In this document: in pieces, positions 41,671 to 59,806 of the stretch | How positions within the stretch are numbered: the first letter of the stretch is position 1 | How the letters are laid out: every line of letters starts with the position of its first letter | Assembly (NCBI RefSeq): GCF_900205865.1 | Contig: NZ_LT906662.1 | Span: 2,555,411 to 2,619,410 of the forward strand | Direction of reading: 5' to 3' | From: Thermoanaerobacterium sp. RBIITD | GTDB taxonomy: Bacteria > Bacillota > Thermoanaerobacteria > Thermoanaerobacterales > Thermoanaerobacteraceae | DNA length: 64,000 bases | Notes under the pieces: generated by a model | Told to the model about the DNA's origin: nothing | Database searches by the model: none | Seen by the model: only the letters and a program-made list of their open reading frames with translations | Made by a program: the position numbers and the translations under genes

Positions 41671-42094
41671 ATTTACGGAGTCATTGTGGCAGGAAATTAC
41701 TAAACATCATCGTACCTAATTTGATGAAAATATAGGAATTTTTGTATTATATAGTATCATTATCCTCTGGCTGAATAAATTAAAGAAATACAAAAACTAT
41801 CAAGGGGGATGATAGTTAAATGAGATAAAAGCAAATGTTTGTATAAACTTTGGTATTTTAAAATTGAAAAGAGAGAAATTTGCTATAGAGCAATTTTAGA
41901 TAAAAACAATATATTATTGCAGATCAAGATTTTTTTATCTAAACACTTACCTTTTAAGAGATCCAAAGATTAAAATAGTATATAGATAATATTGAATAAA
42001 TAATAAATACTACTAATTTTTTAGCAAAAAATTTTAGAATCCCTTGACTGTGACCTCAGGTATTGGCTTATTATAAAATCAAGGAGGGATTATG
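41671..42094 (+). promoter_or_regulatory. metH-merR intergenic region with MerR-type promoter
   Basis: The promoter before the MerR gene is TTGACT (42044-42049), a 19-base spacer and TATTAT (42069-42074). The overlong spacer holds the near-palindrome TGACCTCAGGTA, the arrangement expected where a MerR-family dimer sits between -35 and -10 and untwists the DNA. It implies self-activation by the next gene. Upstream, ACTATCA...TGATAGT (around 41800) can form a small hairpin without a T run. I see no gene or clear terminator for metH in the rest. Confidence 0.65.
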
Positions 42095-43003
42095 ATGAAA
42101 ATAAGTGAAGTAATGGAGATCACAAAGCTCACAAAAAAGGCAATAAATTATTACGAAGATGAGGGATTGATAAAACCCGATATTAATCCAGATAATAACT
42201 ATCGTGAGTATTCTCAAAGTGATGTTGACAAATTGATACAGATTGCAACTTTAAGACAATTAGATATGCCAGTAAAGGAGATAAAAAAAGTCATATTAAA
42301 TCCAGAGCTAATGAAAGATAAGCTTAAACAACATCTAATGAATCTTGAAGATGAATCAAAGAGGATTGAAAAGTGTAAATGTTTGATTAAACTATGCCTC
42401 GATACATTAAATATTACTGATGATATGTCAGAGATCACAAAAAATTTGATATCTCTTAAAGAGTCTCTTGATATGGATGATAAAGCTAAAGAAGGTTTTA
42501 TAAAAAGGCAATTGTTAAGAATATTCCCTGGTAATTTTGGCGAGATTTTGATTGCACTTTATAGTCCATTTCTAAATGAACCAATAGATACACCAGAAAA
42601 GGAAGAAGCATGGCTTGAATTAGTTAATCGCCTTGATAATATTGAAAATATAGAATATACAGATGAAATGAATGAAATATATAAAAAGATAAATGCAGAA
42701 GAATTTGAAAAATATAAAGATAAAGCAAAAAAGATATCAAAGAAGTGGATATCTATCACTGACTCGGAAATGGATGATTCAAAAGAACATTTTTTAAAGA
42801 ACATAAACGATATAAATGAATCTTCACCAGAAATTATAAAGATGCTGGAGAATTTGATGATTACGATGAAAGATATAAATATGGATAAGTACTTGAGCGT
42901 GCTTAGCGAAGATTACCGTAAGTATAAAGATAATTGGGTTAAGTATAATAAATTATTAAATGTCAAAATTGATGAAAAAGGAAATATAATTAAAGCTGAA
43001 TAG
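42095..43003 (+). CDS. MerR family transcriptional regulator with long effector domain
   Basis: This 302-residue regulator has a winged-helix MerR DNA-binding domain at the N-terminus (ISEVMEITKLTKKAINYYEDEGLI, then YREYSQSDVDKL). A coiled dimer helix around residues 75 to 110 and a roughly 190-residue acidic, helical C-terminal domain follow. That domain lacks the cysteines of metal sensors, so a small molecule or peptide is a likelier effector. The C-terminal domain is not one I can name. ATG 42095 fits AAGGAGGG better than 42092. The MerR-style promoter just upstream argues for autoregulation; no other target is obvious. Confidence 0.88.
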   Translation: MKISEVMEITKLTKKAINYYEDEGLIKPDINPDNNYREYSQSDVDKLIQIATLRQLDMPVKEIKKVILNPELMKDKLKQHLMNLEDESKRIEKCKCLIKLCLDTLNITDDMSEITKNLISLKESLDMDDKAKEGFIKRQLLRIFPGNFGEILIALYSPFLNEPIDTPEKEEAWLELVNRLDNIENIEYTDEMNEIYKKINAEEFEKYKDKAKKISKKWISITDSEMDDSKEHFLKNINDINESSPEIIKMLENLMITMKDINMDKYLSVLSEDYRKYKDNWVKYNKLLNVKIDEKGNIIKAE

Positions 43004-43019
43004 ACAAATTTTATGATAT

Positions 43020-43048
43020 AAGTCGGAAAAATTCCGGCTTATTTTTTG
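43020..43048 (+). terminator. Terminator after merR-type gene
   Basis: AAGTCGGA (43020-43027) pairs with TCCGGCTT (43033-43040), with one G-T pair, then ATTTTTTG. Confidence 0.85.
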
Positions 43049-43159
43049 ATCTAAAAATGTCTAGGCTATATTAAAAAAAGAGGCAAATACTTAATAAGAG
43101 AAAAAGTCTTAGTTTACTTTTTTAAGTATAGAAAAGATTAGATATTTTAAATATATTAC

Positions 43160-43393
43160 TTTCTATAAGATGCAAAACAAAAAAATTTATGAAATTTTAT
43201 CCCGAAGTGGATTTTGATTTATTGACTTTACAAATCAGTGTTCTTAAATATCTTGAGGAATAAAAGTGGAGAAGTTATAATGAATATAAGAATATAAAAT
43301 TGATTCATTTACCATATCTGTGGAAATAATTAACAGGTACAAGGGTAATATAATCAGTGAAATAACGAACTAATTGCATGAAAGGAGAATATT
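43160..43393 (+). promoter_or_regulatory. Leader of GH31 gene with shared element and promoter
   Basis: Bases 43198-43229 resemble 31222-31255 ahead of the glucoamylase gene, including the hairpin ATCC-CGAAGT-GGAT. Overlapping its end is a possible promoter, TTGACT (43222-43227), 17-base spacer, TAAATA (43245-43250). That would leave the element at or above -35, so it may be DNA-level control rather than a transcribed hairpin. About 140 bases of AT-rich leader follow before GAAAGGAG and the start codon. Confidence 0.5.
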
Positions 43394-45772
43394 ATGAGTT
43401 TTTGGGAAACAAAGGATACGAAAAGAATATGGTATATTGGTGAAGTTTATGATTTTAAAAGAGATGGTAACAGCCTATTATTTAGCACATACAAAGGTAT
43501 TATGAGAATTAAGATTCTTTCTTCAAATTGCATAAGAATAACTTTTAATATGGAAAGTAAATTCTTAGATATCCCCTCTTTTGCCGTTGTTAATGAGATG
43601 TCAACAGAAGATTTTAGCGTTGAGGTAAATAGCGAATATTTCACTGTGTCTACAAGTGAAATAAGGGTTAATATTTATAAAAATGATGGAAGAATCGTAA
43701 TACATGATTTTGATGAAAATATCTTGTCAGAAGATATGGAATATGGCTTCTCTTGGACGAAGGATTCTTTAAAATGCAAAAAGAGAATCGCTCCTAATAG
43801 CCATTTTTATGGCCTTGGTGAAAAGACAGGATTTTTGGATAAAAAAGGTTACAAATATGTTATGTGGAATACCGATGATCCATTACATACACCAACAAAA
43901 GACCCTCTTTATAAAAGTATCCCTTTTCTTATAAATTTTAATGGGCAATATGCTTCGGGCATATTCGTAGACAACACCTGTAAAATAGTTTTTAATTTAG
44001 GTGAAGAAAGCTCCGAATACTATACATTTGAGGTAAATGATTGTGAGATGGATTATTATTTCATATATGGTCCTGACATAAAAAGGGTTATAAGTACATA
44101 TACAGACCTTACAGGGAAAATGTATTTACCACCAAAATGGGCATTGGGTTACCAACAATGTAGGTGGAGTTACTATCCAGAAGAAGTTGTTAGAGAATTA
44201 GCGGATACTTTCAGAGAGAAAGAAATCCCTTGTGATGTTATTTATTTAGATATTGACTACATGGATGGTTTTAGGGTTTTCACTTGGGACCCTAACCGCT
44301 TCCCTGATCCTGAAAGAATGCTTAAAGATTTAAAAGACAAGGGATTCAAGGTAGTTACAATAGTTGATCCAGGTGTTAAGAAGGATGCAGAATATGTAGT
44401 TTATAGAGATGGCATAGAGAAAGGTGTTTTTTGTAAAAAGCTAACAGGTGAAGTATATATAGGTAAAGTATGGCCTGGAGAAGCCGCTTTTCCTGACTTT
44501 TCAAGGGAAATGACACGCAAATGGTGGGCTGAAAAGCACACCGAGTTATTGGGTAAGGGTGTTTCAGGGATATGGAATGATATGAACGAACCAAGTGATT
44601 TTTCTATAAATTCTAACAAAAGGACAGAATGTACTGTACCGAATGATGTAATAATGGAAAATGATGGTCATCCAGCTACTTTTAGAAAATATCATAACTG
44701 TTACGGCTTAAATATGTGCAGGGCTACATTCGAAGGTTTTAAAATGATAAAGCCTGATGAAAGACCCTTTATATTAACTAGGTCTGCTTATGCAGGTATA
44801 CAAAGATATTCTGCCGTATGGACGGGTGATAACCACAGCTGGTGGGAGCAATTGGATTCATCAATGCCTATGCTTATGAATATTGGTATGTCAGGTGTAC
44901 CTTTTGTAGGTGGTGATGTTGGAGGATTCCAAGGCAATGCATCACCAGAATTATTTGCTCGCTGGATGCAGTTAGGGACATTTACGCCATTCTTTAGGGC
45001 ACATACTGAAATAGACACAAAGCCACATGAGCCATGGGCTTTTGGTAAAGAAGTTGAGGATATTTGTAGGAAATATATTAGTTTAAGGTACAAATTATTG
45101 CCGTATATTTATAACGAATTTTATAAAGCTTCTAAAACGGGGTTGCCTATAATGAAGCCACTTGTAATGAAATATCCTGAAGATGAGAATGTACATAATT
45201 TGTGTAATCAGTTTTTATTTGGTGACTGCATAATGGTTGCACCAATTTATAGACCGTCAACATATAAGAGAAGTGTTTATATTCCTGCAGGCACATGGTT
45301 CAACTATTGGACAGATGAAAAATATAAGGGGAATTCATATATAATTGCTGATGCGCCATTAGATACATTGCCAATATATGTGAAGTCTGGAGCGATTATT
45401 CCCTCTATACCCGCTATGAATTACGTAGGAGAGAAAATAGTTGATACTCTTACCTTAGACATTTACTTAGGTGAAGATTCTGAATATTGTCTTTATGAGG
45501 ATGACGGTATAAGCAAAAAGTACTTAGAGGGAGAATATAGAATAACTTGTTTCGAACAAAAACGTACAGATAATGGCATCAATTTTACAATAAGACCTTT
45601 GGCAAAAAGATATACGACTGGTAGGACATCATATCTTTTAAGATTCCATGGATTTGAAGAAAAGCCTATGAAGGTTGAACACAACGATAAATGTGAAACA
45701 AATTTTGATAATGGGGTATTTTGTATTAAAATAAATGATACAAATGAAGAGCAAATATTAACAATTAAATAG
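43394..45772 (+). CDS. GH31 alpha-glucosidase
   Basis: This 792-residue cytoplasmic enzyme (no signal peptide) should release glucose or other alpha-linked sugars from short oligosaccharides. An N-terminal beta-sandwich (about 1 to 240) includes FYGLGEKTG. The barrel holds IPCDVIYLDIDYMDG and the nucleophile Asp in GIWNDMNEPSDF. A later VWTGDNHSWWEQL with GVPFVGGDVGGF contains the acid/base region and FFRAHTE. C-terminal beta domains end the protein. The sequence is closest to alpha-glucosidase rather than alpha-xylosidase members by eye, but I cannot prove specificity. ATG 43394 follows GAAAGGAG. Confidence 0.93.
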   Translation: MSFWETKDTKRIWYIGEVYDFKRDGNSLLFSTYKGIMRIKILSSNCIRITFNMESKFLDIPSFAVVNEMSTEDFSVEVNSEYFTVSTSEIRVNIYKNDGRIVIHDFDENILSEDMEYGFSWTKDSLKCKKRIAPNSHFYGLGEKTGFLDKKGYKYVMWNTDDPLHTPTKDPLYKSIPFLINFNGQYASGIFVDNTCKIVFNLGEESSEYYTFEVNDCEMDYYFIYGPDIKRVISTYTDLTGKMYLPPKWALGYQQCRWSYYPEEVVRELADTFREKEIPCDVIYLDIDYMDGFRVFTWDPNRFPDPERMLKDLKDKGFKVVTIVDPGVKKDAEYVVYRDGIEKGVFCKKLTGEVYIGKVWPGEAAFPDFSREMTRKWWAEKHTELLGKGVSGIWNDMNEPSDFSINSNKRTECTVPNDVIMENDGHPATFRKYHNCYGLNMCRATFEGFKMIKPDERPFILTRSAYAGIQRYSAVWTGDNHSWWEQLDSSMPMLMNIGMSGVPFVGGDVGGFQGNASPELFARWMQLGTFTPFFRAHTEIDTKPHEPWAFGKEVEDICRKYISLRYKLLPYIYNEFYKASKTGLPIMKPLVMKYPEDENVHNLCNQFLFGDCIMVAPIYRPSTYKRSVYIPAGTWFNYWTDEKYKGNSYIIADAPLDTLPIYVKSGAIIPSIPAMNYVGEKIVDTLTLDIYLGEDSEYCLYEDDGISKKYLEGEYRITCFEQKRTDNGINFTIRPLAKRYTTGRTSYLLRFHGFEEKPMKVEHNDKCETNFDNGVFCIKINDTNEEQILTIK

Positions 45773-45775
45773 AAT

Positions 45776-45801
45776 CAAACAAGGGACCTGTCCCTTGTTT
45801 G
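45776..45801 (+). terminator. Perfect hairpin after GH31 gene
   Basis: CAAACAAGGGA pairs exactly with TCCCTTGTTTG around a 4-base loop (11-bp stem). There is no separate T run beyond the arm, so it may terminate weakly or only pause; it abuts the ribosome site of the next gene. Confidence 0.6.
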
Positions 45802-45819
45802 AAAGGAGATGATGGACAT

Positions 45820-47262
45820 ATGGTTGAAGCTAAGCAGATTGCAAGATGGGAAAAAGGAATATATATCATTGTTCTATCATGTATAGCTTTAGTAGGCTTT
45901 ATAACCACGATACATTCTTTAAGCGATCCTGACGCATACTGGCATATTGCAACAGGACGATATATTGTAACAAATCATAGCATACCGAAAACCGATATAT
46001 TTTCATGGTATGGAATAAAAAATCATTTAAAATGGGTAAATCACGAATGGCTTTATGATGTCATTATTTACAGCGTTTTCTCATTTTTCGGCTTAAAAGG
46101 GACCATTGTATTTACAGGTATCACATTTTCTTTTTTAATTTCTCTAATATACATTTATACAAAAGTTAGAACTAATAACAATATCATTTCTTTAGTAGCA
46201 GCGATAATTGCAGTTATTGGTTTGAATTCTTTCATGGTGCCAAGACCACAAACATTATCATATAATTTGTTTGTATTAACATTGATTTTATTAGAAAAAG
46301 AAAAATGGTGGTATACAATACCAATAGTAGTGTTGGGTGTTAACTTACATGGTGGATTTTCACCAATGTACATAATTATTATAGCAATGTTAGCGTGGAG
46401 GAAAAAAACATTATTGATTCCTACTGCAATTGCTTCAATGATAATTAATCCATATGGCATAACAATGCTTACATATCCTATACAAATGGAGAAATGTACA
46501 CAATTTTATAAATACATAACAGAATGGATTAAAACACCATTAATAGAATATAAATTTGCACTTGCATTATATATTATTATCATAATATCTATAATAAATA
46601 ATACAAAAAAGTGGAAGATTGAGGATTCAATACTTGCATTGCTTATTTCTGTCTTAACTTTAACAGCTGTAAGACAGCTTGTATTTTTATATATATTCAT
46701 ATTCCCACTATTATCACCATATATATTGGATGGTTCTACAAATATTTATAATGGAATAAAGAAAAAGGTTCATATAAAATTTGATATTTTAAATAAATTT
46801 AATTTAAAACGGTTTAATTTAATAATTATCTTAATGCCTATATTAATAATATCTTTTGTTGCTCTAATTATATTCGATATTTATAGAGTTAAAAATCTTC
46901 ACCAAATTATTCCGCCAGACATATATCCAACAAAAGCAGTTAATTTCATGAGACAGAATAACATAAAAAATTATTTTAATGAATACAATATTGGTGGTTA
47001 TTTGATATTTGAAAATTTACATCCATTAGTTGATGGACGAACAGATATATTTGTGCCTATGTACAATAAAACAGATATATTCGAAGAATTGGTCAAAGTG
47101 GAAAGGCGAGAATCAAATTATAAAGCATTTTTAGATAAATACAATGTTAAATATATTATAATTGATAAAGATTTTTATCTAAATACTTTTTTGCTAGCGG
47201 ATCCAAAGTTTAAGATAATTTATGACGATGAAAATTTTTTTATATACCAATATTTAAAGTAA
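45820..47262 (+). CDS. GT-C-like polytopic membrane protein
   Basis: This protein of about 480 residues has ten or more hydrophobic segments. After the first helix comes a loop with DPDAYWHIATGRYI and then WVNHEWLYDVI. An acidic pair in the first external loop followed by Trp-His is typical of GT-C glycosyltransferases that use lipid-linked sugars (PMT/ArnT-like). The C-terminal soluble part has YNIGGYLIFENLHPLVDGRTD. I infer a glycosyltransferase acting on the outer face of the membrane; neither donor nor acceptor is known. ATG 45820 follows AAAGGAGATGATGG. No other cell-surface glycan genes are nearby. Confidence 0.65.
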   Translation: MVEAKQIARWEKGIYIIVLSCIALVGFITTIHSLSDPDAYWHIATGRYIVTNHSIPKTDIFSWYGIKNHLKWVNHEWLYDVIIYSVFSFFGLKGTIVFTGITFSFLISLIYIYTKVRTNNNIISLVAAIIAVIGLNSFMVPRPQTLSYNLFVLTLILLEKEKWWYTIPIVVLGVNLHGGFSPMYIIIIAMLAWRKKTLLIPTAIASMIINPYGITMLTYPIQMEKCTQFYKYITEWIKTPLIEYKFALALYIIIIISIINNTKKWKIEDSILALLISVLTLTAVRQLVFLYIFIFPLLSPYILDGSTNIYNGIKKKVHIKFDILNKFNLKRFNLIIILMPILIISFVALIIFDIYRVKNLHQIIPPDIYPTKAVNFMRQNNIKNYFNEYNIGGYLIFENLHPLVDGRTDIFVPMYNKTDIFEELVKVERRESNYKAFLDKYNVKYIIIDKDFYLNTFLLADPKFKIIYDDENFFIYQYLK

Positions 47263-47460
47263 AGGTATAATTTCCATATATGGCAAATCTAGAACAGATG
47301 ACTGCAGAATGGATAGGCGGGACACAATATGGTGCAACAACGATTGCCGGTTCTTAATGTTTAAGGCAACCTGATTCAAAGGAATTTATAATGGCAAAGC
47401 GTTAAGGTGAAAGTGTTGCTTAGGTTGTAAAGGCATTGAAAAATGCCGAAAAGTAGAAAA
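47263..47460. other. Intergenic remnant region and minus-strand terminator
   Basis: GGCATTGAAAAATGCC (47432-47447) forms a small hairpin that, on the minus strand, is followed by TTTAC and could end the Rsm22-type gene. The plus strand holds a 25-codon frame from ATG 47280 that I cannot assign. The rest looks like decayed coding sequence with several short broken frames. Confidence 0.4.
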
Positions 47461-48432
47461 TTAACTATAAATTGAACCCCATTTATAATCGCGAGCTTTT
47501 TTATATTGCTCGCGATCCTTTTTTGTTACCACTACTTGTTTGAGCCCATCTTTACTGCATATTTCAAGAGATACGTGCCCCTTTCTAATTTGTGGATGTC
47601 TAATTATCCTTCCCTGAATACCTTGTATGTATTTATGGGACATACACAAATAAGAAAATTTTTCGTCTTCGTATGAAAGTTCACCATTTTTAACCCGCCT
47701 ATGCATACTTGAGCGTGTGATACGAGAAGAAAAATGGCACCAGTCATCATCTTTCATAGGACATATATCATCGTGGGGACATGGTGCTATTGTATGGGCA
47801 CCTAATGATGATAATAATTCACGAGCCTTTTTAATACGCAAAAAGCCAATAGGCGTACCTGGTTCAATGATGATTAATATATCCCCTGTACTTTCCCATA
47901 GTTTTTTGATTAATTTTTGTTGGCTATCTTCTGGTAGTTCTCCAATGGAATATGATGCTATAATAATATCGTAAGTAGGTATTTCAAATGGCTTTATTAC
48001 ATCAACTTTTAACCAGTTTGCCTCTTTGATAGATGCGAGATTTGAATTAGAAGCAAGGACTTTTCCTATCTTTATCATTTCTTCGTCTTTTTCAAATAGT
48101 GTTATTTTTTCTATATCCGGCCAAATGGCAGTTGCTGCCCACATAGCTGTTCCAGGGCCAGCACCTACGTCTAAAAGTGATTTAGGTTTAAATTCCTTAT
48201 ATATTTCTTTTACTTGAAATAAGGCAGAATAAACGGTACCAAATGTCGCAGGCATCCTATATACGATATATGCTATTATTTCATCACGGGAGTGCAAAAA
48301 CTTATTATCTGTAGATGATTTACCTTCGCGGTAACGACTTGAAATATCTGAAACGAGTACGGCAAGTTTTTTTGTAGTTAACGTCATAGCTTCATTTTCT
48401 ATTGCTTTTTGTAATTCTTTCGGCAATTCCAT
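47461..48432 (-). CDS. Rsm22-type (METTL17-like) small-subunit rRNA methyltransferase-family protein
   Basis: This 323-residue protein has a SAM-binding Rossmann domain (LLDVGAGPGTAMWAA, then IIASYSIGELPE). A cysteine-rich insert, CPHDDICPMKDDDWCHF plus a later SYLCMSHK, follows. This is the Rsm22/METTL17 pattern, in which four cysteines hold a metal or iron-sulfur centre and the protein assists small ribosomal subunit assembly. The role here is inferred from mitochondrial relatives. The ATG at 48432 is preceded by AAGGAAACT on the minus strand. It is divergent from the helicase gene, with about 170 bases between them. Confidence 0.82.
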   Translation of the reverse strand: MELPKELQKAIENEAMTLTTKKLAVLVSDISSRYREGKSSTDNKFLHSRDEIIAYIVYRMPATFGTVYSALFQVKEIYKEFKPKSLLDVGAGPGTAMWAATAIWPDIEKITLFEKDEEMIKIGKVLASNSNLASIKEANWLKVDVIKPFEIPTYDIIIASYSIGELPEDSQQKLIKKLWESTGDILIIIEPGTPIGFLRIKKARELLSSLGAHTIAPCPHDDICPMKDDDWCHFSSRITRSSMHRRVKNGELSYEDEKFSYLCMSHKYIQGIQGRIIRHPQIRKGHVSLEICSKDGLKQVVVTKKDREQYKKARDYKWGSIYS

Positions 48433-48605
48433 AAAATTAGTTTCCTTTCTAATTCCATTAGTTACATACTAAATAGCATATACATTAATTGAAGGACATA
48501 TACATTTATATTATAATTAAACTTAAAGCAATTACAAGATCAAATGAACTTTTAGATAAAATTATTAAATTATTGTAGATCCTTATTTTGGAGAGGAAAG
48601 ACTAG

Positions 48606-50948
48606 ATGAATAAGCAAAATATAAAGATTTCTGTTAGAGATTTGGTGGAATTTATAATGCGATGTGGTGATTTAAACAACGAATTTGTCGGAAGAAGTAA
48701 TAATAGAGCATTGGAAGGTTCTAAGATACATAGAAAAATACAAAGATCTCAAGCAGAAAATTATCAAAAAGAAGTTACATTGAAGCATAATGTAGAGTAT
48801 TCGGAATTCATCCTTACAATCGAAGGACGTGCAGATGGTATATATAACGATAATGATATGATTACAGTTGACGAGATTAAAACGACGACGGCATCATTAG
48901 ATGATATTGATGTAAATTACAATCCTCTGCACTTAGCACAAGCTAAATGTTATGCATATATTTATGGGATGCAAAATGATTTAGTTAATATAAATGTTCA
49001 ACTGACGTATTACAATATTGATACAGATGAAATCAGATATCTGAAAAATACTTTTTCAATAGAAGAATTGAAAAAATTTTTTGATGACCTTGTCCGGAAA
49101 TACTATGATTGGGCGAAATTATCATATGATTGGATAATAGAAAGAAATGATTCAATAAAAAAAATGGATTTTCCATATAAAGACTACCGAAAAGGGCAGA
49201 GGGAATTAGCTGTTGCTGTATATAGGACTGTTGAAAGGGGAAAGAAACTTTTTGTACAAGCACCAACGGGTATTGGGAAAACTATATCTACTATTTTTCC
49301 AGCAGTAAAAGCTATGGGCGAAGAACTTACATCTAAGATATTTTATCTGACGGCAAAGACTATTACGAGAACAGTGGCAGAAGATGCATTTAATCGCATG
49401 AAAGATAATGGGCTGAAATTTAAGACATTGGTATTGACTGCTAAGGAAAAGATATGCTTTATTGAAAAGCCTAATTGCAGTCCCGAAACATGTGAATATG
49501 CAGAAGGACATTTTGACCGTGTTAATGATGCAATTATGGATATATTAAAACATGAACATAATTATTCAAAAGAGATAATAGAGAAATACGCAAAGAAACA
49601 TCGTGTATGTCCATTTGAATTTTCCCTTGATTTATCGCTGTGGGCGGATGCTGTTATATGTGACTACAACCATGTTTTTGATCCAAACGTAAGCTTAAAA
49701 AGATTTTTTCAGGAAAATAACGATTTTACTTTGCTTATTGATGAAGCACATAACCTTGTCGACAGGTCAAGAGAGATGTTTTCAGCTGAAATTAATAAGA
49801 AGCAGTTTTTAGATGCAAAAAAATTAATTAAAGATAAAGGTCCTAAAATAAAGAAAGTTTTAAATAACATAAATAAGATATTTTTAAAGTTGAAAAAATT
49901 ATGCGGCGATAATAATTATTACATTATAAAAGACGGGGAAAGCGAGTTATTTGGATATTTGAGGCAATTAGTCAATTTGCTTGAAGAATATTTATTGAAG
50001 AAGGTCAAAATCGATGAATATGAAAATATATTAGATTTGTATTTTGACGTGCTTAAATACTTAAAGATTTCTGACCTTTATGATGATACATACACAACAT
50101 ATGTTGAAATGATAGGTTATGATGTTAAGATAAAATTATTTTGCCTTGACCCATCAAAATTGCTTTTTGATATAATGAAGAAATGTAAATCGTCTATCTT
50201 TTTTTCTGCAACAATGTTGCCGCTTAAATATTATCGCAGTATTTTAGGCGGAAATGACGATGACTACATGATGTATCTTTATTCACCATTTGATGTAAAT
50301 AATAGAGAGATATTAATTGCAGATAATGTTTCTACAAAGTATAAGGATAGAGAAAAAACATACCAGACTATAGTTGATTATATTGATTTAACTGTTAATG
50401 GAAGAATAGGAAATTATATGGTATTCTTTCCCTCTTATGAATATATGAATAAAGTATATAAAATCTTTAGGCAAAAATATCCTGAGAAAAGTATCTATAT
50501 TCAGGAATCTGGTATGTCTGATGAGGAAAGATATGATTTTTTAAATCTTTTTCAAGAAAATAACGATGGGTTAATCGGGTTTTGCGTTCTCGGTGGTGTT
50601 TTTTCAGAAGGTATAGACCTTAAGCATAATAGATTGATTGGTGCTATAATTGTAGGTGTGGGATTACCACAAATATGCCTCGAAAGAAATCTTATAAGAG
50701 ATTATTTCGATAGAAAATACGGGCTCGGATATGAATTTGCATACATGTATCCAGGCATGAATAAGGTTATGCAGGCAGCTGGGCGTGTTATAAGAACTGA
50801 AACCGATAAGGGTGTGATTTTGCTCATCGATGAGAGATATTCACATAGAAACTATGTTAAGCTATTTCCAAAAGAATGGTTTCCAAATATGAGGGTAAAC
50901 ATTGATAATATAGGGAAACATCTTGATAAATTCTGGAGCATGAAATAA
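48606..50948 (+). CDS. Nuclease-helicase fusion: PD-(D/E)XK domain plus XPD/DinG-type helicase
   Basis: This 780-residue protein joins two domains. Residues 1 to about 170 resemble RecB/Cas4-like nucleases, with His42, Asp77 in GRADG, the DEIK catalytic pair at 89-92 and QAKCY at 112-116. From about 190 it is a superfamily 2 helicase of the DinG/XPD group: Walker A APTGIGKT (219-226), DEAH (379-382) and an arginine motif AAGRVIR near the end. Cysteines 284, 291, 296 and 335 match the XPD iron-sulfur cluster. It should unwind and cut DNA, most likely in repair. ATG 48606 is behind GAGAGGAAAG. The PPTase gene follows 24 bases on. Confidence 0.87.
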   Translation: MNKQNIKISVRDLVEFIMRCGDLNNEFVGRSNNRALEGSKIHRKIQRSQAENYQKEVTLKHNVEYSEFILTIEGRADGIYNDNDMITVDEIKTTTASLDDIDVNYNPLHLAQAKCYAYIYGMQNDLVNINVQLTYYNIDTDEIRYLKNTFSIEELKKFFDDLVRKYYDWAKLSYDWIIERNDSIKKMDFPYKDYRKGQRELAVAVYRTVERGKKLFVQAPTGIGKTISTIFPAVKAMGEELTSKIFYLTAKTITRTVAEDAFNRMKDNGLKFKTLVLTAKEKICFIEKPNCSPETCEYAEGHFDRVNDAIMDILKHEHNYSKEIIEKYAKKHRVCPFEFSLDLSLWADAVICDYNHVFDPNVSLKRFFQENNDFTLLIDEAHNLVDRSREMFSAEINKKQFLDAKKLIKDKGPKIKKVLNNINKIFLKLKKLCGDNNYYIIKDGESELFGYLRQLVNLLEEYLLKKVKIDEYENILDLYFDVLKYLKISDLYDDTYTTYVEMIGYDVKIKLFCLDPSKLLFDIMKKCKSSIFFSATMLPLKYYRSILGGNDDDYMMYLYSPFDVNNREILIADNVSTKYKDREKTYQTIVDYIDLTVNGRIGNYMVFFPSYEYMNKVYKIFRQKYPEKSIYIQESGMSDEERYDFLNLFQENNDGLIGFCVLGGVFSEGIDLKHNRLIGAIIVGVGLPQICLERNLIRDYFDRKYGLGYEFAYMYPGMNKVMQAAGRVIRTETDKGVILLIDERYSHRNYVKLFPKEWFPNMRVNIDNIGKHLDKFWSMK

Positions 50949-50972
50949 TAAGTTTTGTAGGAGTTCAATAAT

Positions 50973-51662
50973 ATGATTGAAATATATGGTGTACAACTTA
51001 AAAATTACATAAGCAAAGAAGATTTTGACAGGCTATTAGGATTTGTATCAGAAGAAAAGAAAGAACGCATTAGAAGGTTTAGAAAATATGATGATGCTGA
51101 AAGGTCATTAATTGCCGATATATTATTGCGCGTAGTAATTTGTAAAAAAATCGGGCTTAAAAACGATGAATTAAGTTTTTATAAAAATGAATATGGTAAG
51201 CCTTTATTGAAAAATATGGAGAACATTTATTTCAGCATTTCACATTCATATGACTGGGTTGTTGTTGCAGTAAATGAATTTTCTATAGGTATTGACATTG
51301 AAAAGATAAAGCCGATTAATTTAAATATTGCAAAACGTTTTTTTACTGATGATGAGTATAATTTTATAATGGATGTTGATGTTCAAAAAAGGTTAGAATA
51401 CTTTTTTAAATTATGGACATTGAAGGAAAGTTATGTTAAGTTGGAAGGCAAAGGACTTTATACATCACTTAAATCTTTCTCAATAATTATAAATGATTAT
51501 AACATAAATATTAAGACAGATAATGAATTAAAGAATTGCTTTTTTAGAGAATATAATATTGATGCTGGCTATAAATTGGCAGTCTGCTCTTTAAACAATG
51601 ATTTTCCAGATAATATTATTATTAAAGGTTATAATGACTTATTAGAAATTAAGGATCTATAA
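50973..51662 (+). CDS. Sfp-type 4'-phosphopantetheinyl transferase
   Basis: This 229-residue enzyme moves phosphopantetheine from CoA to a serine of a carrier protein. The two-domain Sfp layout is visible: magnesium ligands in GIDIEKIKPI and the helix FFKLWTLKESYVKLEGKG. It is twice the size of AcpS, so the substrate range may be broad. No polyketide or peptide synthetase occurs in this window, so its carrier protein must lie elsewhere or be the fatty-acid ACP. It probably shares a transcript with the helicase gene. Confidence 0.9.
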   Translation: MIEIYGVQLKNYISKEDFDRLLGFVSEEKKERIRRFRKYDDAERSLIADILLRVVICKKIGLKNDELSFYKNEYGKPLLKNMENIYFSISHSYDWVVVAVNEFSIGIDIEKIKPINLNIAKRFFTDDEYNFIMDVDVQKRLEYFFKLWTLKESYVKLEGKGLYTSLKSFSIIINDYNINIKTDNELKNCFFREYNIDAGYKLAVCSLNNDFPDNIIIKGYNDLLEIKDL

Positions 51663-51666
51663 TCAA

Positions 51667-51707
51667 CTGTACTACAGATAAAAATTTATCTAAGTAGTGT
51701 AGTACAT
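51667..51707 (+). terminator. Inverted repeat after PPTase gene
   Basis: TGTACTACA pairs with TGTAGTACA, with an inner GATAAA/TTTATC helix offset by a bulge. A short ATTGTTT follows. It probably ends the helicase-PPTase unit. Confidence 0.55.
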
Positions 51708-51850
51708 TGTTTATTATAAAGTCATAGATACAATATTATATGAAATAACCTGAATAGCAGGGTGCAGTTTCCACTTCATTATATGGAGGTGAATACATAT
51801 CAAGCATTATCTTAAATGATAATGTTTGGAATGTTACTCATCTTAAAGAG

Positions 51851-51887
51851 GAAAAAATAACCGCCCTGCTCCCAACAGAGCGGTTAT
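51851..51887 (-). terminator. Terminator of alpha/beta hydrolase gene
   Basis: On the minus strand TAACCGC pairs with GCGGTTA-complement across an inner CTGTTGGGAGCAG helix and is followed by TTTTTTCC. Confidence 0.8.
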
Positions 51888-51898
51888 ATTATATTATA

Positions 51899-52672
51899 TT
51901 ATTTTAATTTTTCTTTTAAAAAGTTAACAGATTCGTCAATAGCTATTTTCTCCCAGTCAAGTCTTGTAAATGTATGGTCGGACTCTTTTATTGTTATCCT
52001 CTTTGCATTATTTGTATATATTGTCTCAAGTATCTTATCTGATACATGATATGGCACAGATTCATCATTTGTCCCATGTACGATAAGTACATCTTTATCA
52101 TATCCTTTGGACCTTTTATAAATATCAATACTTGCAATATCATCAACAAAATCCTTGCTTATTGCATGTCCGCCAATATCAACAAAACCTTGCTTTTTCA
52201 ATATTTCACCAGCTTCACCTTGTGCTTGCAGCAAAACAATATCTCTCATGTTAAAAGCAGGTGCCCAAAGTACTAGTGATTTAACAATATCTTTAAACTC
52301 ATTTGCAATTATTCCCGCAATTGCACCACCCATACTTAAACCAAGTATTCCTATATTATTTAAGTCTGTCGATGGTTCACTTTTAACAAATTCTACTATA
52401 TGTCTTGCATCTTCTAATTCACCGCTAAATGTCATTTCACTGAAATCTCCATCACTTTCACCAGAACCAAAGAAGTCAAAGCGTACACTTCCTATATCAG
52501 CTTCTTCAAGCTTTCTTGATAATTTAACAAAAATAAAATGTGATTCTACTTTATTGCCTGTAAATCCATGAAAAATTGCTACCATTGGAACTTTCCCATT
52601 TGCATTATTTGGTATGTGCATCATACCTCTTAAAGTTTTGCCGCCATATGTAAGTTCTACAGCTTTTTGCAT
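51899..52672 (-). CDS. Alpha/beta-hydrolase esterase (cinnamoyl-esterase-like)
   Basis: This 257-residue cytoplasmic hydrolase has an oxyanion region FHGFTGNKVES and the nucleophile Ser in GLSMGGAIAG. The Asp lies in VHGTNDESVPY and the His in ESDHTFTR, a complete catalytic triad. The pattern resembles the feruloyl/cinnamoyl esterases of lactobacilli and clostridia, which release phenolic acids from plant esters; other short esters are equally possible. ATG at 52672 is preceded by AGGGGTGA on the minus strand. It is a single-gene unit with its own terminator. Confidence 0.86.
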   Translation of the reverse strand: MQKAVELTYGGKTLRGMMHIPNNANGKVPMVAIFHGFTGNKVESHFIFVKLSRKLEEADIGSVRFDFFGSGESDGDFSEMTFSGELEDARHIVEFVKSEPSTDLNNIGILGLSMGGAIAGIIANEFKDIVKSLVLWAPAFNMRDIVLLQAQGEAGEILKKQGFVDIGGHAISKDFVDDIASIDIYKRSKGYDKDVLIVHGTNDESVPYHVSDKILETIYTNNAKRITIKESDHTFTRLDWEKIAIDESVNFLKEKLK

Positions 52673-52828
52673 TGTATCACCCCTTAATTTTATTTAATTA
52701 GATTATATCACAATGGTGTCAAAAAATATCCAATAGGTTACAGATTTACTACGCAGATATAAATTGGGTTTAACTTATAAGCACCTATTTCCCATAAAAA
52801 TTAAACCATTCAAAATAATTTAATTTGG

Positions 52829-54052
52829 CTATGCTTGAACAAGTTTTACAATATTTAATATAACCTCAACGGCTTTTTCCATAGCAAATGTCGGTATATA
52901 TTCATATTTTCCGTGATAATTGTGACCGCCGGTAAAAATATTTGGTGTAGGAAGCCCCATATATGATAGCCTTGCGCCATCTGTTCCACCCCTTATAGGT
53001 GATACATCGGGCTTTATACATGCCTCTTCTATTGCTTTTAATGCAATGTCAACTATGTTCATATTTTTCTCGATGATTTCACGCATGTTGTAATATTGGT
53101 CTTTTAGATCAAGTTCAACTGTACCACTGCCATATTTTCTATTAAGGCTTTCAACTATATTTTTCATATAATTTTTACGATTTTCAAAGTTAACTTTGTC
53201 GAAATCTCTTATAATGTAATATAAATGTGTTTCTTCTACATCACCATCAAAATTGTTGATATGATAAAATCCCTCATATCCTTCTGTTTGTTCTGGCGTT
53301 TCTTCAAGTGGAAGCATTGAAGAAAGTTCTACACCGATTAAAACAGAATTTTTCATTTTACCTTTAGCTGTTCCCGGATGTACATTACGCCCATGTATTG
53401 TTATTTTTGCATAAGCTGCATTGAAATTTTCATACTCAATTTCGCCTATTTTACCACCATCAATAGTGTAAGCAAAGTCTGCGCCAAATTTTTTAACATC
53501 AAATTTATCTGCACCACGGCCAATTTCTTCATCAGGTGTAAAACATATTTTTATAGTGCCATGCTTTATTTCTGGATGTTCCATTAGATATTCACAAGCT
53601 GTTACTATCTCAGCTATACCTGATTTATCATCAGCACCGAGCAATGTTGTCCCATCAGTTGTTATCAATGTTTTCCCTATGTATTCTCTAAGTTCTGGAA
53701 AATCCTTAGGTGATAATACAATGTTTTTTTCTTTATTTAATACTATGTCATTACCATCATAATTTTCGATTATTTGCGGATTTACATCTCTCCCTGACAT
53801 ATCTGGACTTGTATCCATATGTGATATAAAACCTATTACAGGAAGATCTTTTTCTACATTTGAAGGAATTGTTCCCATTACATATCCATTTTCATCAACA
53901 AATACATCAGAAAGTCCTATGTTTTTTAATTCATTAGCTAATTCTTTAGCAAAGACCATCTGCCCTTCTGTACTGGGACATGTTGCTGAATTTTCATTTG
54001 AAGTTGTTTCATATTTTACATACTTTAAAAACCTATCTACAACGCTTTGCAA
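52829..54052 (-). CDS. pepT: Peptidase T (tripeptidase)
   Basis: This 407-residue zinc aminopeptidase of the M20 family cleaves N-terminal residues from tripeptides. Metal-site motifs are [11 protein letters not shown] and [13 protein letters not shown]. The acid EE lies in [15 protein letters not shown], with DGG following. The dimerisation domain has [14 protein letters not shown] and the C-terminal [13 protein letters not shown] with FTGGHNYHG gives the last ligand. The length is standard for PepT. A TTG at 54052 behind AAGAAGGG looks like the start. No operon partner is obvious. Confidence 0.95.
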
Positions 54053-54112
54053 TTTAACCCTTCTTTCTGTAGCATTTTCTAATTTTATTTTATCATTTAT
54101 AGATTTATTTTA

Positions 54113-54142
54113 AAAGGTAAAAGACCCGGCAATATGCCGGGC
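54113..54142 (-). terminator. Terminator of nitroreductase gene
   Basis: CCCGGC (54125-54130) pairs with GCCGGG (54136-54141). On the minus strand TCTTTTACCTTTT follows, so it ends the nitroreductase gene. Confidence 0.85.
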
Positions 54143-54147
54143 GTAAA

Positions 54148-54645
54148 TTAAAATTTTTCCCAATGAATAACATCTGTCAATGGCTTTTTACTTCTTGCTG
54201 CAGGTTTCTGCGTGCTGTAGCCAAGTGGAACTATAGATATCATCCTTAAGTTAGATGGAACTTGTAAAAACTCATTTATGTCTTTTTCGTATGTCCTATC
54301 ATATCCTGCTACCCAACATGAGCTAATGCCATAAGCCTTTGCTGCAAGTATAATATTCTCCGTCGCAGCTGCACCGTCTTCAAGATGATGAACATTGTCA
54401 CTTTCACAGTACACAATAACACATGTTGCCGCATCCTTAATAAATTTGCCATATGTAGCCTTTTCCGAGATATATTTTAGCCTTTCTTTATCGGTTACAA
54501 CGACAAAATGCCATGGCTGCATATTATTTGCTGTTGGTGCAAGCCTTCCGCAGTCAATTATATCTTCAAGTATGTTTTTGGGTATTGGTTTATCTTCAAA
54601 AACCCTCACACTTCTCCTTTGTTTTAAAACATCCAATGCTTCCAT
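54148..54645 (-). CDS. Nitroreductase-family FMN protein
   Basis: This 165-residue protein opens with EALDVLKQRRSVRVFEDKPI and continues with CGRLAPTANNMQPWHFVVV, the FMN phosphate site of the NAD(P)H nitroreductase family. Its small size fits the short nitroreductases of anaerobes. AAKAYGISSCWVAG near residue 110 completes the flavin pocket. The natural substrate is unknown; quinones or oxidised flavins are usual guesses. ATG at 54645 follows GGAGGTG on the minus strand. Confidence 0.9.
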   Translation of the reverse strand: MEALDVLKQRRSVRVFEDKPIPKNILEDIIDCGRLAPTANNMQPWHFVVVTDKERLKYISEKATYGKFIKDAATCVIVYCESDNVHHLEDGAAATENIILAAKAYGISSCWVAGYDRTYEKDINEFLQVPSNLRMISIVPLGYSTQKPAARSKKPLTDVIHWEKF

Positions 54646-54757
54646 TTATAAACACCTCCAATCTATATTATAACCCATAAAAAATAATTTCAAAAAATAT
54701 TGACGTTGATGACATAATTATGTGAAAATATAAATAACTTGAAAGGAGTTGATTATA

Positions 54758-55255
54758 ATGTCAAAATTAAAATATATCATGGATATGAAGGAGTACTTTG
54801 GAAAAGATTTAAAGCGCATAAACCATGCATTAAAGGTATTGAATTTTGCCGATAGAATAATGGATGGAGAAAATATATCTGATGATAAATTAAAGAAGAT
54901 AGTGACAATAACAGCAATCTTGCACGATATAGGGATAAAAAATGCTGAAAAGAAATACAATTCTTCATCAGGGAAATTTCAGGAGATAGAAGGACCGGCT
55001 GTTGCAAGAGAGATAATGAAAAATAACAATGAAGATGATGATACAATTGAAAGGGTTTGCTACATTATAGGAGGGCATCACACGGCATCAAAAAATAATG
55101 GGCTTGATTTTCAAATAATATGGGAATCAGACTTTCTTGTAAATATAGAAGAAGATGAGCTATATAAAAATTTAGAAAATGTGAAGAATATCATAGAAAA
55201 GAACTTTAAGACAAAAACAGGTAAAAGAATAGCAACTGACATATTCTTTAGTTAA
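54758..55255 (+). CDS. HD-domain phosphohydrolase
   Basis: This 165-residue protein has the HD metal site: His in RINHALKVLNFA, then HDIGIKNAEKKY, and a distal GGHHTASKNNG with Asp in WESDFLVN. Such proteins cleave phosphomonoesters or nucleotides using a metal ion. No partner domain identifies the substrate. ATG 54758 follows AAAGGAG; the upstream TTG at 54749 is too close to it. It is about 65 bases before pgi. Confidence 0.85.
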   Translation: MSKLKYIMDMKEYFGKDLKRINHALKVLNFADRIMDGENISDDKLKKIVTITAILHDIGIKNAEKKYNSSSGKFQEIEGPAVAREIMKNNNEDDDTIERVCYIIGGHHTASKNNGLDFQIIWESDFLVNIEEDELYKNLENVKNIIEKNFKTKTGKRIATDIFFS

Positions 55256-55320
55256 AACTTGATTATATGGTCCATATGGTATAAAATATGAAATGTAAAA
55301 ATAAGATTGGAGGTTTACAT

Positions 55321-56676
55321 ATGGCAAATGTATTAAATTTCGATTATTCCAATGCATTAAATTATGTAAATGAGCATGAAATATCATATCTTGAAAAACA
55401 AGCACAACTATCACTTGATATGGTGCTTAATAAGACCGCTCAGGGAAGCGATTTCCTTGGTTGGGTTGACTTACCCCGCGATTACGACAAAGATGAATTT
55501 TCTCGAATAAAAAAGGCTGCAGAAAAGATAAAATCTGATTCGGATGCACTTGTTGTAATCGGAATAGGCGGCTCATACCTCGGTGCAAGAGCTGCTATAG
55601 AGATGTTGACACATTCATTTTACAATGTCTTACCACAGGCGGTTAGGAAAGCTCCAGAAATATATTTTGCCGGAAACAGCATAAGCTCAACATATCTTCA
55701 GGATTTGCTTGAAGTTCTTGAGGGGAAAGATGTGTCAATAAATGTTATTTCAAAATCCGGTACTACAACTGAACCAGGTATAGCATTTCGCATATTTAGA
55801 GATTTGCTTGAGAAAAAATATGGTAAAGATGAGGCAAAATCAAGAATATATGTGACAACGGATAAAGCAAAGGGAGCGCTCAAAAAACTTGCAGACGAAG
55901 AGGGCTATGAGACATTCGTGATTCCTGACGATGTAGGTGGAAGATATTCAGTTCTTACGGCTGTAGGACTTCTTCCAATAGCAGCTGCAGGAATAAATAT
56001 CGATGATATGATGCAGGGTGCATATGATGCATCATTAGTTTACAAAAAATCAGATATGAAAGAAAATTTAAGTATGCAGTATGCAATATTAAGAAACGCT
56101 TTATACAGAAAGGGAAAATCAATTGAAATTTTAGTTAATTATGAACCAAGGCTTCATTATTTCTCTGAATGGTGGAAACAATTATATGGTGAGAGTGAAG
56201 GCAAAGACCATAAGGGGATATATCCTGCATCAGTAGATTTTACTACAGACCTTCATTCAATGGGTCAGTTCATCCAAGATGGTAGTAGAATCATGTTTGA
56301 GACCGTCTTGAATGTTGAGAAACCTTTAAAAGAAATAACAATAAACGAAGATAAAGACAATGTAGATGGACTTAACTTCCTTGCAGGACAGACGATAGAT
56401 TTTGTAAATAAAAAGGCTTTTCAGGGAACCGTTATTGCACATAATGATGGTGGTGTTCCAAATCTTATAGTAAATTTACCGGAGATATCCGCATATAATT
56501 TTGGCTATCTTGTTTACTTCTTTGAGATGGCATGTGGAATAAGTGGTTATTTAAACGGCGTAAATCCGTTTGATCAACCAGGTGTTGAAGCATACAAGAA
56601 AAATATGTTTGCACTATTAGGAAAGCCTGGCTATGAAAAAGAAAAAGACGCACTTGAAAAAAGACTTCAAAAGTAA
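55321..56676 (+). CDS. pgi: Glucose-6-phosphate isomerase
   Basis: This 451-residue enzyme interconverts glucose 6-phosphate and fructose 6-phosphate, linking the glucose from starch breakdown to pfkA in this window. It has [18 protein letters not shown], the sugar-phosphate site [14 protein letters not shown] and the catalytic Glu in a downstream QGES-like [13 protein letters not shown], with the C-terminal [14 protein letters not shown]. The length is that of the short bacterial type. ATG 55321 follows GGAGGT. It runs convergent to the glucan phosphorylase gene with a shared terminator between them. Confidence 0.95.
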
Positions 56677-56693
56677 ATATAAATTAATAACAA

Positions 56694-56725
56694 AAAAGGA
56701 TATACCAAATTCGGTATATCCTTTT
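56694..56725. terminator. Bidirectional terminator between pgi and glucan phosphorylase
   Basis: AAAAGGATATACC (56694-56706) pairs exactly with GGTATATCCTTTT (56713-56725) around a 6-base loop. Both strands give a T run at the 3' side, so it serves the two convergent genes. Confidence 0.9.
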
Positions 56726-56730
56726 AAATT

Positions 56731-58374
56731 TTATTTTATTAACTTTTTATTAACTTTCTTTTTTGTGTACATCAAATCATAATATTCTTTTATCATTCTA
56801 TTTGCTGAAAATGCATCATATGTTGTTTTGATGCTTTCCTTCATCATATTTTCCCATTTTGCTTTGTCATTGTAGTATGTTGGTACAACCTTATTTAAGA
56901 GAACATCGTATAATGCTTCTAGATCATGTTTATCGAGTTCCTCTACATCATCCGATTCAAAACCGTCTCCAAACTGCCATCCATTTACGCCATCAATGCA
57001 TGCTTCAGGCCACCAACCGTCGAGAATGCTTAGATTGAGGACACCATTCATAGCAGCCTTCATACCAGATGTACCACTTGCTTCCTTAGGCCTTCTTGGG
57101 TTATTTAGCCATACATCGGAACCGCGCGTTAACATCTTTCCTATTGTCATGTCATAATCTTCAAGAAAGACAACGCTGTTTGGATATTTCTTTGTCATTT
57201 CGATCAATTTAGCGACAATCCTTTTACCTACATCATCAAGTGGGTGACCCTTTCCGGAGAATACGATCTGAATCTTTCCTGACCTCAAATATTCTCCTAT
57301 AACCTCATCATTTGTGAAAATTAAATCACTTCTCTTATATGGTGCAGCCCTTCTTGAAAAGCCTATAAGCAGTTTATCTGCGTCAAGTTTAACACCTGTG
57401 CGGTCATATACGAAATCAATCAGTTCATTTTTAAGGATATTGTGTGTTCTGAGCAATCCTTCACCATTGTTATAAGCATCGGTTATTCTTTTATCGACCC
57501 AGGTATTTCTGTCAATGCCATTTGTAATAGATATTATTGGCGCAGCGTCATCTACATCCTTCCACATCTTTCTTGCTGTTTTACCATGCAATTTAGCAAC
57601 ACCATTGGCAATACGGGAAAGGTGTAATCCTGCAACTGTCATGTTAAATGGAACACCGCCAATTTGTGCCATTTGCTCAATTGTAAGGCCATTATTCGCA
57701 CCCATGTACATTAGTAGTTCAAGACTATGAGATTCATTTCCTTCAATAACAGGTGTATGGGTAGTAAATACAACTTCTTCGCGTGTTTTATCCCATGCCT
57801 CTTTAAAAGACATATCCTCATTTTCCATTTTCTCACGAATGAGTTCCAATGCTGCTAATGCTGCATGCCCTTCATTAAAATGATATACATCGACATCTAT
57901 ACCAAGTGCTCTTAAAGCTCTTACGCCACCAATTCCTAGTACGATTTCTTGTGCAACCCTTTCCTCTCCAAACCATCCATAAAGCTGACCTGTAATCCAT
58001 CTATCACCATTTTCAGGTATATCTGTGTCAAGCAGGTATAGTGGTGCATTATCAAAACAATCAACAAGCCACACTTTGCAATAAACATCCTGATTTCTTA
58101 TTTTTACTTTTACTTTTACGCCTGTGTCTTTAAGAAAGTCATATTTATAGTTGTGGTATGCATCATATGGATAACCATCTTTACCTATATGCTGTTCTGT
58201 ATAGCCTTGTTTCCAAAGTATGCCTATACCTACAAGTGGAAGATTTAACTCTTTTGCTGCTTTTAAATGATCACCTGCTAATATGCCAAGCCCGCCGGCA
58301 TATAGCTTAAAATCTGAATTAAGTCCATATTCCATACAAAAATATGCAACACGTGGTAATTTCTTATTCTCCAT
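56731..58374 (-). CDS. glgP: Alpha-glucan phosphorylase, short form
   Basis: This 547-residue GT35 enzyme would split alpha-1,4-glucans with phosphate to glucose 1-phosphate. It is the short form found in thermophilic anaerobes, roughly 250 to 300 residues shorter than the enteric type. N-terminal VAYFCMEYGLNSDFKLYAGG, then YHFNEGHAAL with active-site residues and the PLP lysine in GTSGMKAAMNG identify it. It has no signal peptide and should act on imported or stored glucan. ATG at 58374 follows AAGGAGGAG on the minus strand. Operator-like repeats lie about 60 bases upstream. Confidence 0.95.
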   Translation of the reverse strand: MENKKLPRVAYFCMEYGLNSDFKLYAGGLGILAGDHLKAAKELNLPLVGIGILWKQGYTEQHIGKDGYPYDAYHNYKYDFLKDTGVKVKVKIRNQDVYCKVWLVDCFDNAPLYLLDTDIPENGDRWITGQLYGWFGEERVAQEIVLGIGGVRALRALGIDVDVYHFNEGHAALAALELIREKMENEDMSFKEAWDKTREEVVFTTHTPVIEGNESHSLELLMYMGANNGLTIEQMAQIGGVPFNMTVAGLHLSRIANGVAKLHGKTARKMWKDVDDAAPIISITNGIDRNTWVDKRITDAYNNGEGLLRTHNILKNELIDFVYDRTGVKLDADKLLIGFSRRAAPYKRSDLIFTNDEVIGEYLRSGKIQIVFSGKGHPLDDVGKRIVAKLIEMTKKYPNSVVFLEDYDMTIGKMLTRGSDVWLNNPRRPKEASGTSGMKAAMNGVLNLSILDGWWPEACIDGVNGWQFGDGFESDDVEELDKHDLEALYDVLLNKVVPTYYNDKAKWENMMKESIKTTYDAFSANRMIKEYYDLMYTKKKVNKKLIK

Positions 58375-58432
58375 AATTCTCCTCCTTAAGATTCATTTTC
58401 TATAATTATATTATAATATTAAAAAAGTATAT

Positions 58433-58458
58433 GTGCAAGTGTTTGCACGTAGTTGCAC
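58433..58458 (-). promoter_or_regulatory. Operator-like repeats upstream of glucan phosphorylase
   Basis: GTGCAAGTGTTTGCAC (58433-58448) is an inverted repeat of GTGCAA around GTGT. A third half TTGCAC lies at 58453-58458. The half-sites resemble the GCGCAA halves before the sugar importers and glucoamylase. AT-rich promoter-like sequence lies between it and the start of glgP. The rest of the divergent 58375-58765 region holds only a small hairpin (GTAGAA-TTTCCC-TTCTAC near 58506). Confidence 0.55.
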
Positions 58459-58765
58459 AATTATAATATTAAAGTATAACGATTATTAGAGAAAATAGAT
58501 TATCAGTAGAATTTCCCTTCTACTTCAGTCGATATTTAATGAACTAAGTTGATAAAGGATATTGAAGTTATTATAATATGTAGTCAATTTTAGATCTGGA
58601 ACTTTTTCGCCTATTTTAATTTGTCAGATTAGATTTTCTATAAGACAAAAATTATTATATAATATAAATTATTATAAAAAGTTGTGTTAAAATTTAATAT
58701 AATTAATGTATAATAAAATTAAAGGGATTCTCATTACATGTTTTTTCATGGAACGGAGGGGTCAC

Positions 58766-59563: not shown

Positions 59564-59589
59564 TTTTAAATATTACTATTTATGGAAAC

Positions 59590-59618
59590 TGTAAGGGCCT
59601 TTAAATTAGACCCTTACA
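59590..59618. terminator. Convergent terminator after isomerase-like gene
   Basis: TGTAAGGG (59590-59597) pairs with CCCTTACA (59611-59618), followed on the plus strand by TTGTTATTG. It overlaps the end of the small minus-strand gene. Confidence 0.65.
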
Positions 59619-59806
59619 TTGTTATTGTGAAGTGCTGGCCAGTCAGCAAATGCAAGAACTAATAGCATTAAAACATTTATAAATGGAATATACATTGTAA
59701 GCCCATATATGCCGCCGAATCCTGCTTTATCAAACAACTTCCACCAAACAAATCCATAAAGGATTGTCAAGGCAGCATACAAAACATATCTAATCAGTTC
59801 TCCCAT
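59606..59806 (-). CDS. Small membrane protein
   Basis: This 66-residue protein has two hydrophobic segments (LIRYVLYAALTILYGFVWWKL and IYGLTMYIPFINVLMLLVLAF) and a short polar tail. WKLFDKAGFGGIYGLTMYIPFINV resembles the DUF5684-like small membrane proteins, where the loop between helices is conserved. ATG at 59806 follows AGGGGGGAT on the minus strand. No function is known. It stands alone between a terminator and a decayed gene. Confidence 0.65.
   Translation of the reverse strand: MGELIRYVLYAALTILYGFVWWKLFDKAGFGGIYGLTMYIPFINVLMLLVLAFADWPALHNNNVRV

Follow-up and report, generated by a model that had tools for sequence, protein, structure and literature searches.

Domain architecture of the gene at 48606–50948

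The window, a 64,000-nucleotide stretch of DNA from the 3.40 Mb genome of Thermoanaerobacterium sp. RBIITD, carries an ATG-started open reading frame of 780 amino acids on the forward strand (ORF listing), which we assign to the EndoDinG type of nuclease-helicases. The features referred to in the text are the following, with the evidence for each in brackets.

48606..50948, + strand: gene of the EndoDinG-type nuclease-helicase, stop codon included (ORF; Pfam, NCBIfam and PADLOC; match to PDB entry 9kqh; AlphaFold)
48606..49160, + strand: PD-(D/E)XK nuclease domain, residues 1–185, with H42, E56, D77, E90-x-K92, Q112 and Y116 (conservation; domain model; Foldseek/VIA)
49188..50948, + strand: SF2 XPD/DinG helicase with motor domains, arch and iron-sulfur domain, residues ~195–780 (Pfam; XPD structures)
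49455..49610, + strand: stretch with the putative iron-sulfur cysteines C284, C291, C296 and C335 (93 of 93 rows; aligned to the cysteines of 9kqh)
50973..51662, + strand: neighbouring gene of an Sfp-type 4'-phosphopantetheinyl transferase (Pfam ACPS and AASDHPPT_N)

The helicase part of the protein matched Helicase_C_2 (7.5e-44), DEAD_2 (3.5e-12) and HBB (8.5e-8) in Pfam, and PDDEXK_1 was recovered at residues 46–165 with an E value of 1.7e-4 and 22.1 bits against a cut-off of 22. The motifs APTGIGKT (219–226), DEAH (379–382), SAT (534–536) and QAAGRVIR (723–730) were read from the sequence, and residues 185/195–780 matched XPD structures, with Z scores of up to 27.7 and recognizable motor, arch and iron-sulfur domains. 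An AlphaFold2 model of the whole protein, built from an alignment of 37 sequences (the window protein and 36 relatives), reached a pLDDT of 87.2 and a pTM of 0.85.

Conservation was evaluated in an alignment of 93 rows. Frames scoring above 300 bits were present in 94 of 110 loci, and the remaining 16 (L015–L030) were other DinG-like matches; one of the 94 (L031) was dropped as a likely duplicate of L005. Among the rows are L001, which is the window copy, and four fragments from contig ends (L099, L100, L103 and L108). H42, E56, D77, E90, K92 and Q112 were not substituted wherever a row had a residue at that position (90–93 of the 93 rows), and the four putative iron-sulfur ligands were invariant in all 93. 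The same nuclease residues, the cysteines and the Walker A lysine were also unchanged in all of eight more distant relatives (two each from Legionella, Cupriavidus and Burkholderia, one from Listeria and one from a viral contig), six of which belong to the Pseudomonadota, at 30–33% identity. As translated from its record, one of the Cupriavidus sequences (L164) contains 15 in-frame stops, and it is unaligned at positions 379–382, 668 and 671. Given this invariance, we rejected the idea that the nuclease domain binds DNA without any catalysis and leaves the helicase to work alone; a 2025 review (PMC11981726) does describe pseudo-exonuclease DinGs (pExoDinG) in its available text, but the sequence lends this reading no support and we regard it as highly improbable here.

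When residues 1–185 were modelled alone, the pLDDT was 91.5 and the pTM 0.87. The best structural match of the isolated domain was 9kqh (Z 21.5), followed by SSO0001 (4ic1, Z 14.2), MGME1 (Z ~14), the Cas4 parts of Cas4/Cas1/Cas2 complexes (Z ~12–13), RecE (11.0), AddAB/AdnAB (~10–11) and Dna2 (Z 9.0 over 158 residues, rmsd 3.2); most of the top matches were DNA nucleases. The sequence profile of the domain also matched 4ic1 (2.2e-4), whose entry title gives SSO0001 only and which we take to be a Cas4. The prediction and the homologous crystal structure thus speak for a PD-(D/E)XK core, and the fusion of nuclease and helicase in the window protein is real and looks intact.

These results bear out the sequence-only reading of the gene as a RecB/Cas4-like nuclease joined to an XPD/DinG helicase, since Pfam, NCBIfam and the structural matches agree with it, and the predicted fold, with its Cas4, MGME1, RecE and Dna2 matches, does not refute it. 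The reading had placed His42, Asp77, Glu90-Lys92 and Gln112 correctly, as the alignment shows, and had missed Glu56; its statement that the helicase motifs and iron-sulfur cysteines lie in the same chain also holds.

Comparison with EndoDinG and other helicases and nucleases

The same reading had treated the fusion as unusual, and here it was not sustained: the architecture is already known and classified as EndoDinG, a named subgroup of DinG-like proteins in the 2025 review, exemplified by the protein of Bdellovibrio bacteriovorus HD100 (PMC11981726, section 3.7), and a protein with the same architecture, 9kqh, has been crystallized. As defined in the available part of that review, EndoDinG combines an N-terminal PD-(D/E)XK domain with H, E, D, E and K residues, DinG motors and a CCCC iron-sulfur domain, together with a truncated arch domain and the loss of strand beta-7 in motor domain 2 (PMC11981726). 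The window protein shares the DinG/XPD SF2 core (Pfam DEAD_2, HBB and Helicase_C_2, and the structural matches) and the N-terminal nuclease with H42, E56, D77, E90 and K92, and in its helicase C284, C291, C296 and C335 make up the CCCC motif of a putative iron-sulfur cluster. It differs in that D77 lies past the middle of a predicted strand (68–82), while the review describes the aspartate at the N-terminus of the strand. The same text claims endonuclease activity for the Bdellovibrio protein as unpublished data, and says that an EndoDinG structure had yet to be reported (PMC11981726). The window protein is therefore an ordinary new member of a little-studied family, and finding it in this genome brings no architecture that was not known before.

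The entry 9kqh, released on 2025-12-03, is Finegoldia magna DinG with single-stranded DNA and ADPNP, and no paper on it was found in the literature searched, from which most subscription papers are missing. The window protein matches it over the whole chain with 42–43% identity (model residues 3–759, Z 37.5). The crystallized chain has alanine at the position of Asp77, which is aspartate in 92 of the 92 rows that have the residue, and this alanine is probably an engineered nuclease-dead mutation. A search for the Finegoldia gene in six genomes did not recover it, five of them giving matches of 25–30% identity.

The layout had also been likened to Dna2 with another type of helicase, and this comparison stands, the motor being of the SF2 XPD type by Pfam and structural matches. 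Like Dna2 (5eaw, 5ean), the window protein has a RecB/Cas4-like nuclease and a helicase in one chain. Dna2, however, has an SF1 motor C-terminal to the nuclease and carries its iron-sulfur cluster in the nuclease, whereas the four cysteines of the window protein are in the helicase. Residues 185/195–780 resemble XPD/Rad3 in their motor, arch and iron-sulfur domains, and XPD/Rad3 helicases have no nuclease domain; NCBIfam rad3 scored 170.8 bits against a cut-off of 246.95. The Cas4 nuclease domain contains a four-cysteine iron-sulfur cluster, according to the available text of PMC4176176, while the nuclease domain of the window protein has no such cluster of its own: the sole widely conserved cysteine column in residues 1–185 is C115 (88 of 93 rows), and the NCBIfam Cas4 equivalog scored 24.9 bits against a cut-off of 65.

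The ExoDinG proteins, B. subtilis DinG and S. aureus DinG (9ii8, 8zef), also join a nuclease to a DinG helicase in one chain. In B. subtilis DinG the N-terminal nuclease is a DEDD exonuclease (PMC12525004, available text), and the window protein has the PD-(D/E)XK fold in its place; Pfam gave no DnaQ/DEDD exonuclease match up to an E value of 1, and TIGR01407 scored 84.2 against a cut-off of 547.7. Other nuclease-bearing DinGs raise the alternative that the window protein works chiefly on RNA or R-loops, removing RNA-DNA hybrids or unprocessed RNAs, with any repair phenotypes being secondary. Among them, B. subtilis DinG removes R-loops (PMC12525004) and the Listeria DinG removes unprocessed rRNA (PMC12774634), in each case as far as the available text goes. 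The difference in nuclease class from B. subtilis DinG, the single-stranded DNA in 9kqh and the predominance of DNA nucleases among the top structural matches all speak against this role, and we consider it unlikely.

Distribution of the family

The gene was found in all nine Thermoanaerobacterium genomes searched. It was absent from 11 genomes representing two further genera of the family, which had no PF13307 match at all, and this indicates that the function is dispensable there. Of 61 near genomes, 14 held a near full-length relative, and 43 of 398 genomes sampled from the phylum gave matches at E <= 1e-60; the source genome is included in both counts, and in a few of the 43 the match was split or carried stops. 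By comparison, any PF13307 match was present in 270 of the 398. A genome scan confirmed 133 relatives, and the 80 loci kept had mostly clostridial names. The occurrence of proteins of this type across genomes is far beyond chance. Among the clostridial genomes compared the family is common, and it extends to Pseudomonadota, with both active sites kept. Almost no published biochemistry on it was found in the literature searched, in which most subscription papers are missing.

No PF13307 helicase other than the window protein was found in the source genome, and the family member likewise stands alone in eight of the nine genomes of the genus. Strict mutual exclusion with other DinG proteins was nevertheless discarded, given that three genomes (G039, G187 and G058) carry both, the second PF13307 frame being the longer.

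Among plasmid records, 25 matched, 15 of them covering at least 80% of the query, and no near-identical DNA was found in plasmids. At least four relatives were confirmed on viral contigs, one of them nearly full length. Among phage records 18 matched, of which seven are named Listeria, two Enterococcus and nine are 'Bacteriophage sp.' faecal records. The Listeria and Enterococcus records H17–H23 encode full-length relatives, and four of the Listeria 'phage' records share bit scores with plasmid-listed Listeria records (H2 and H3), one 2.9 Mb long; on account of these equal scores and that length, H17–H23 are probably host DNA, and all seven Listeria and both Enterococcus records have the look of it.

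Four PDDEXK_1 matches were detected in the source genome, namely the window gene, a pair of frames, 1071 and 1105 amino acids long and ~3 kb apart, that are presumably AddAB, and a 174-amino-acid frame (29.9 bits; L131, G000:C1:1257836-1258147), which is possibly a small Cas4-type nuclease.

Genomic context and proposed function

The window helicase gene lies between the gene for an Rsm22-type methyltransferase and that for the Sfp-type enzyme (Pfam), the latter 24 bases downstream. Neighbours were compared over the window, L032–L110 and L115–L127, where many loci are short or have cut flanks, so that the counts are lower bounds. The Sfp gene was at +1 in at least 9 of 93 loci, all from Thermoanaerobacterium, and the Rsm22-type gene at −1 in at least 7; in at least 6 loci each, the +1 place was taken by an HD-domain gene and the −1 place by an SH3/CHAP protein. 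The largest neighbour family, an ABC ATPase (at least 26 of 93), occupied scattered positions. Sfp relatives were present in 13 of 31 genomes; three of these (G009, G016 and G023) have Sfp without the helicase, and in G021 it is on another contig. A functional tie to the transferase was therefore rejected: the pairing, which had been singled out as odd, is a genus-level habit, uninformative on the family, and Sfp is not part of the system. The conservation of neighbours, which the earlier reading had suggested examining, yielded no neighbour that recurs widely across the loci compared.

The best PADLOC model on the window protein was PDLC01439, labelled typeIV_DinG (464.7 bits), which would suit a helicase-nuclease of a type IV CRISPR or another anti-phage system. 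A precedent for such a fusion exists in CasDinG-HNH of a type IV CRISPR variant, which unwinds, directionally cuts and shreds target DNA during interference (PMC10910872, available text). In that protein, however, the HNH nuclease lies near the C-terminus and RNA-guided complex partners are involved, and no such partners were found for the window protein. On this protein the Csf4 equivalog TIGR03117 (NCBIfam) scored 20.6 against a cut-off of 400, no csf match was obtained at E <= 1e-6 among 10 neighbouring proteins (a set without the protein at 45799–47262), and no CRISPR-like repeats were found in 40000–60000 (direct repeats of >=20 within 150 bases). On the same 10 proteins PADLOC gave only weak partial matches to mad1 (38.1 bits) and mad2 (34.9 bits), in agreement with the previous remark that no known defence cluster lies nearby. 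In addition, the gene has the same adjoining gene in all nine genomes of the genus, unlike a typical mobile defence gene. The low Csf4 score, the lack of repeats and the lack of csf neighbours led us to reject a type IV role despite the label, and a defence function of any such kind has very little probability in our view. Breadth of the underlying helicase model may explain the label. PDLC01439 scores high on this chromosomal helicase, which has no CRISPR context nearby, and it may give rise to false type IV assignments.

Among relatives, repair genes were found alongside only on three Legionella plasmids. On all three (L159, 4986–8964; L163, 4986–8994; L175, 4896–8892) the relative overlaps by 8 bases a GIY-YIG gene, whose domain was confirmed by Pfam in two copies and which uvrC-annotated records match at ~30%. 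The plasmid loci also carry umuD and a Y-family polymerase (3/3), dinB (2/3), Ku (2/3) and UdgX (1/3), and on some of these plasmids an SOS-response peptidase lies near the relative. They are plasmid-borne repair islands with a UvrC/Cho-like GIY-YIG nuclease, which points to a role in DNA repair for those copies and, by extension, suggests one for the family. No recurring repair gene was found beside relatives in the Bacillota loci compared, and the one annotated neighbourhood of a Listeria relative contained metal-transport, regulator, phosphatase and pilin genes and no repair gene. A link to a FAN1-like VRR-NUC gene was tentatively set aside: inspection by eye of the ORFs around seven loci (Legionella, Listeria, Cupriavidus and Burkholderia) suggested no such gene, Pfam being applied to the GIY-YIG neighbours at two of the Legionella loci, and four of the records, all betaproteobacterial, are unannotated there.

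No SOS-box-like site was found upstream of the window gene. A perfect GAAC-N4-GTTC was present upstream in 4 of 89 loci (L047, L050, L056 and L102, three of the four from Ruminiclostridium), as compared with 0.16 expected from mononucleotide shuffles, while sites matching 7 of 8 positions showed no excess (6 observed, 4.7 expected). A consistent SOS box for the family was accordingly rejected.

Our preferred explanation, which we hold to be probable, is that the protein is a chromosomal stand-alone EndoDinG, an ATP-driven XPD/DinG helicase with a metal-dependent PD-(D/E)XK nuclease, that serves repair or fork restart. In its favour are the domain and motif content, the unchanged nuclease and iron-sulfur residues in distant relatives, the match to 9kqh with its single-stranded DNA, the nuclease-fold matches, the unpublished endonuclease activity claimed for the Bdellovibrio protein, the standing of the protein as the one PF13307 helicase found in its genome, and the Legionella plasmid islands. 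Against it count that no SOS-type control is visible for the gene, that no repair gene recurs in the Bacillota loci compared and that the two sister genera lack the gene. Translocation in the 5' to 3' direction on single-stranded DNA is established for the XPD and DinG families, and by analogy the window helicase would have the same polarity. The enzyme would load where a flap, gap or stalled fork offers single-stranded DNA and move 5' to 3' as its XPD relatives do, and the attached Cas4/RecB-like nuclease would cut the strand exposed by the helicase. Unwinding from a 5' tail and cutting of the handled strand would be the simplest use of the two activities, and would fit a role in DNA repair or fork restart; both activities, the flap or single-stranded substrate and the repair role are what we infer for the window protein.

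A more specific form of this repair reading is that the Thermoanaerobacterium protein genuinely fills the role of Dna2 in bacteria, as a single chain that would unwind 5' flaps and cut the displaced strand through a convergent pairing of a RecB/Cas4-like nuclease with an XPD motor in place of an SF1 motor. We regard this as a tentative possibility, and a doubtful one at present. Coming from a thermophile in whose genome no other DinG-type helicase was found, the protein would be a convenient enzyme for the question of whether bacteria have a Dna2-like flap processor in one chain.
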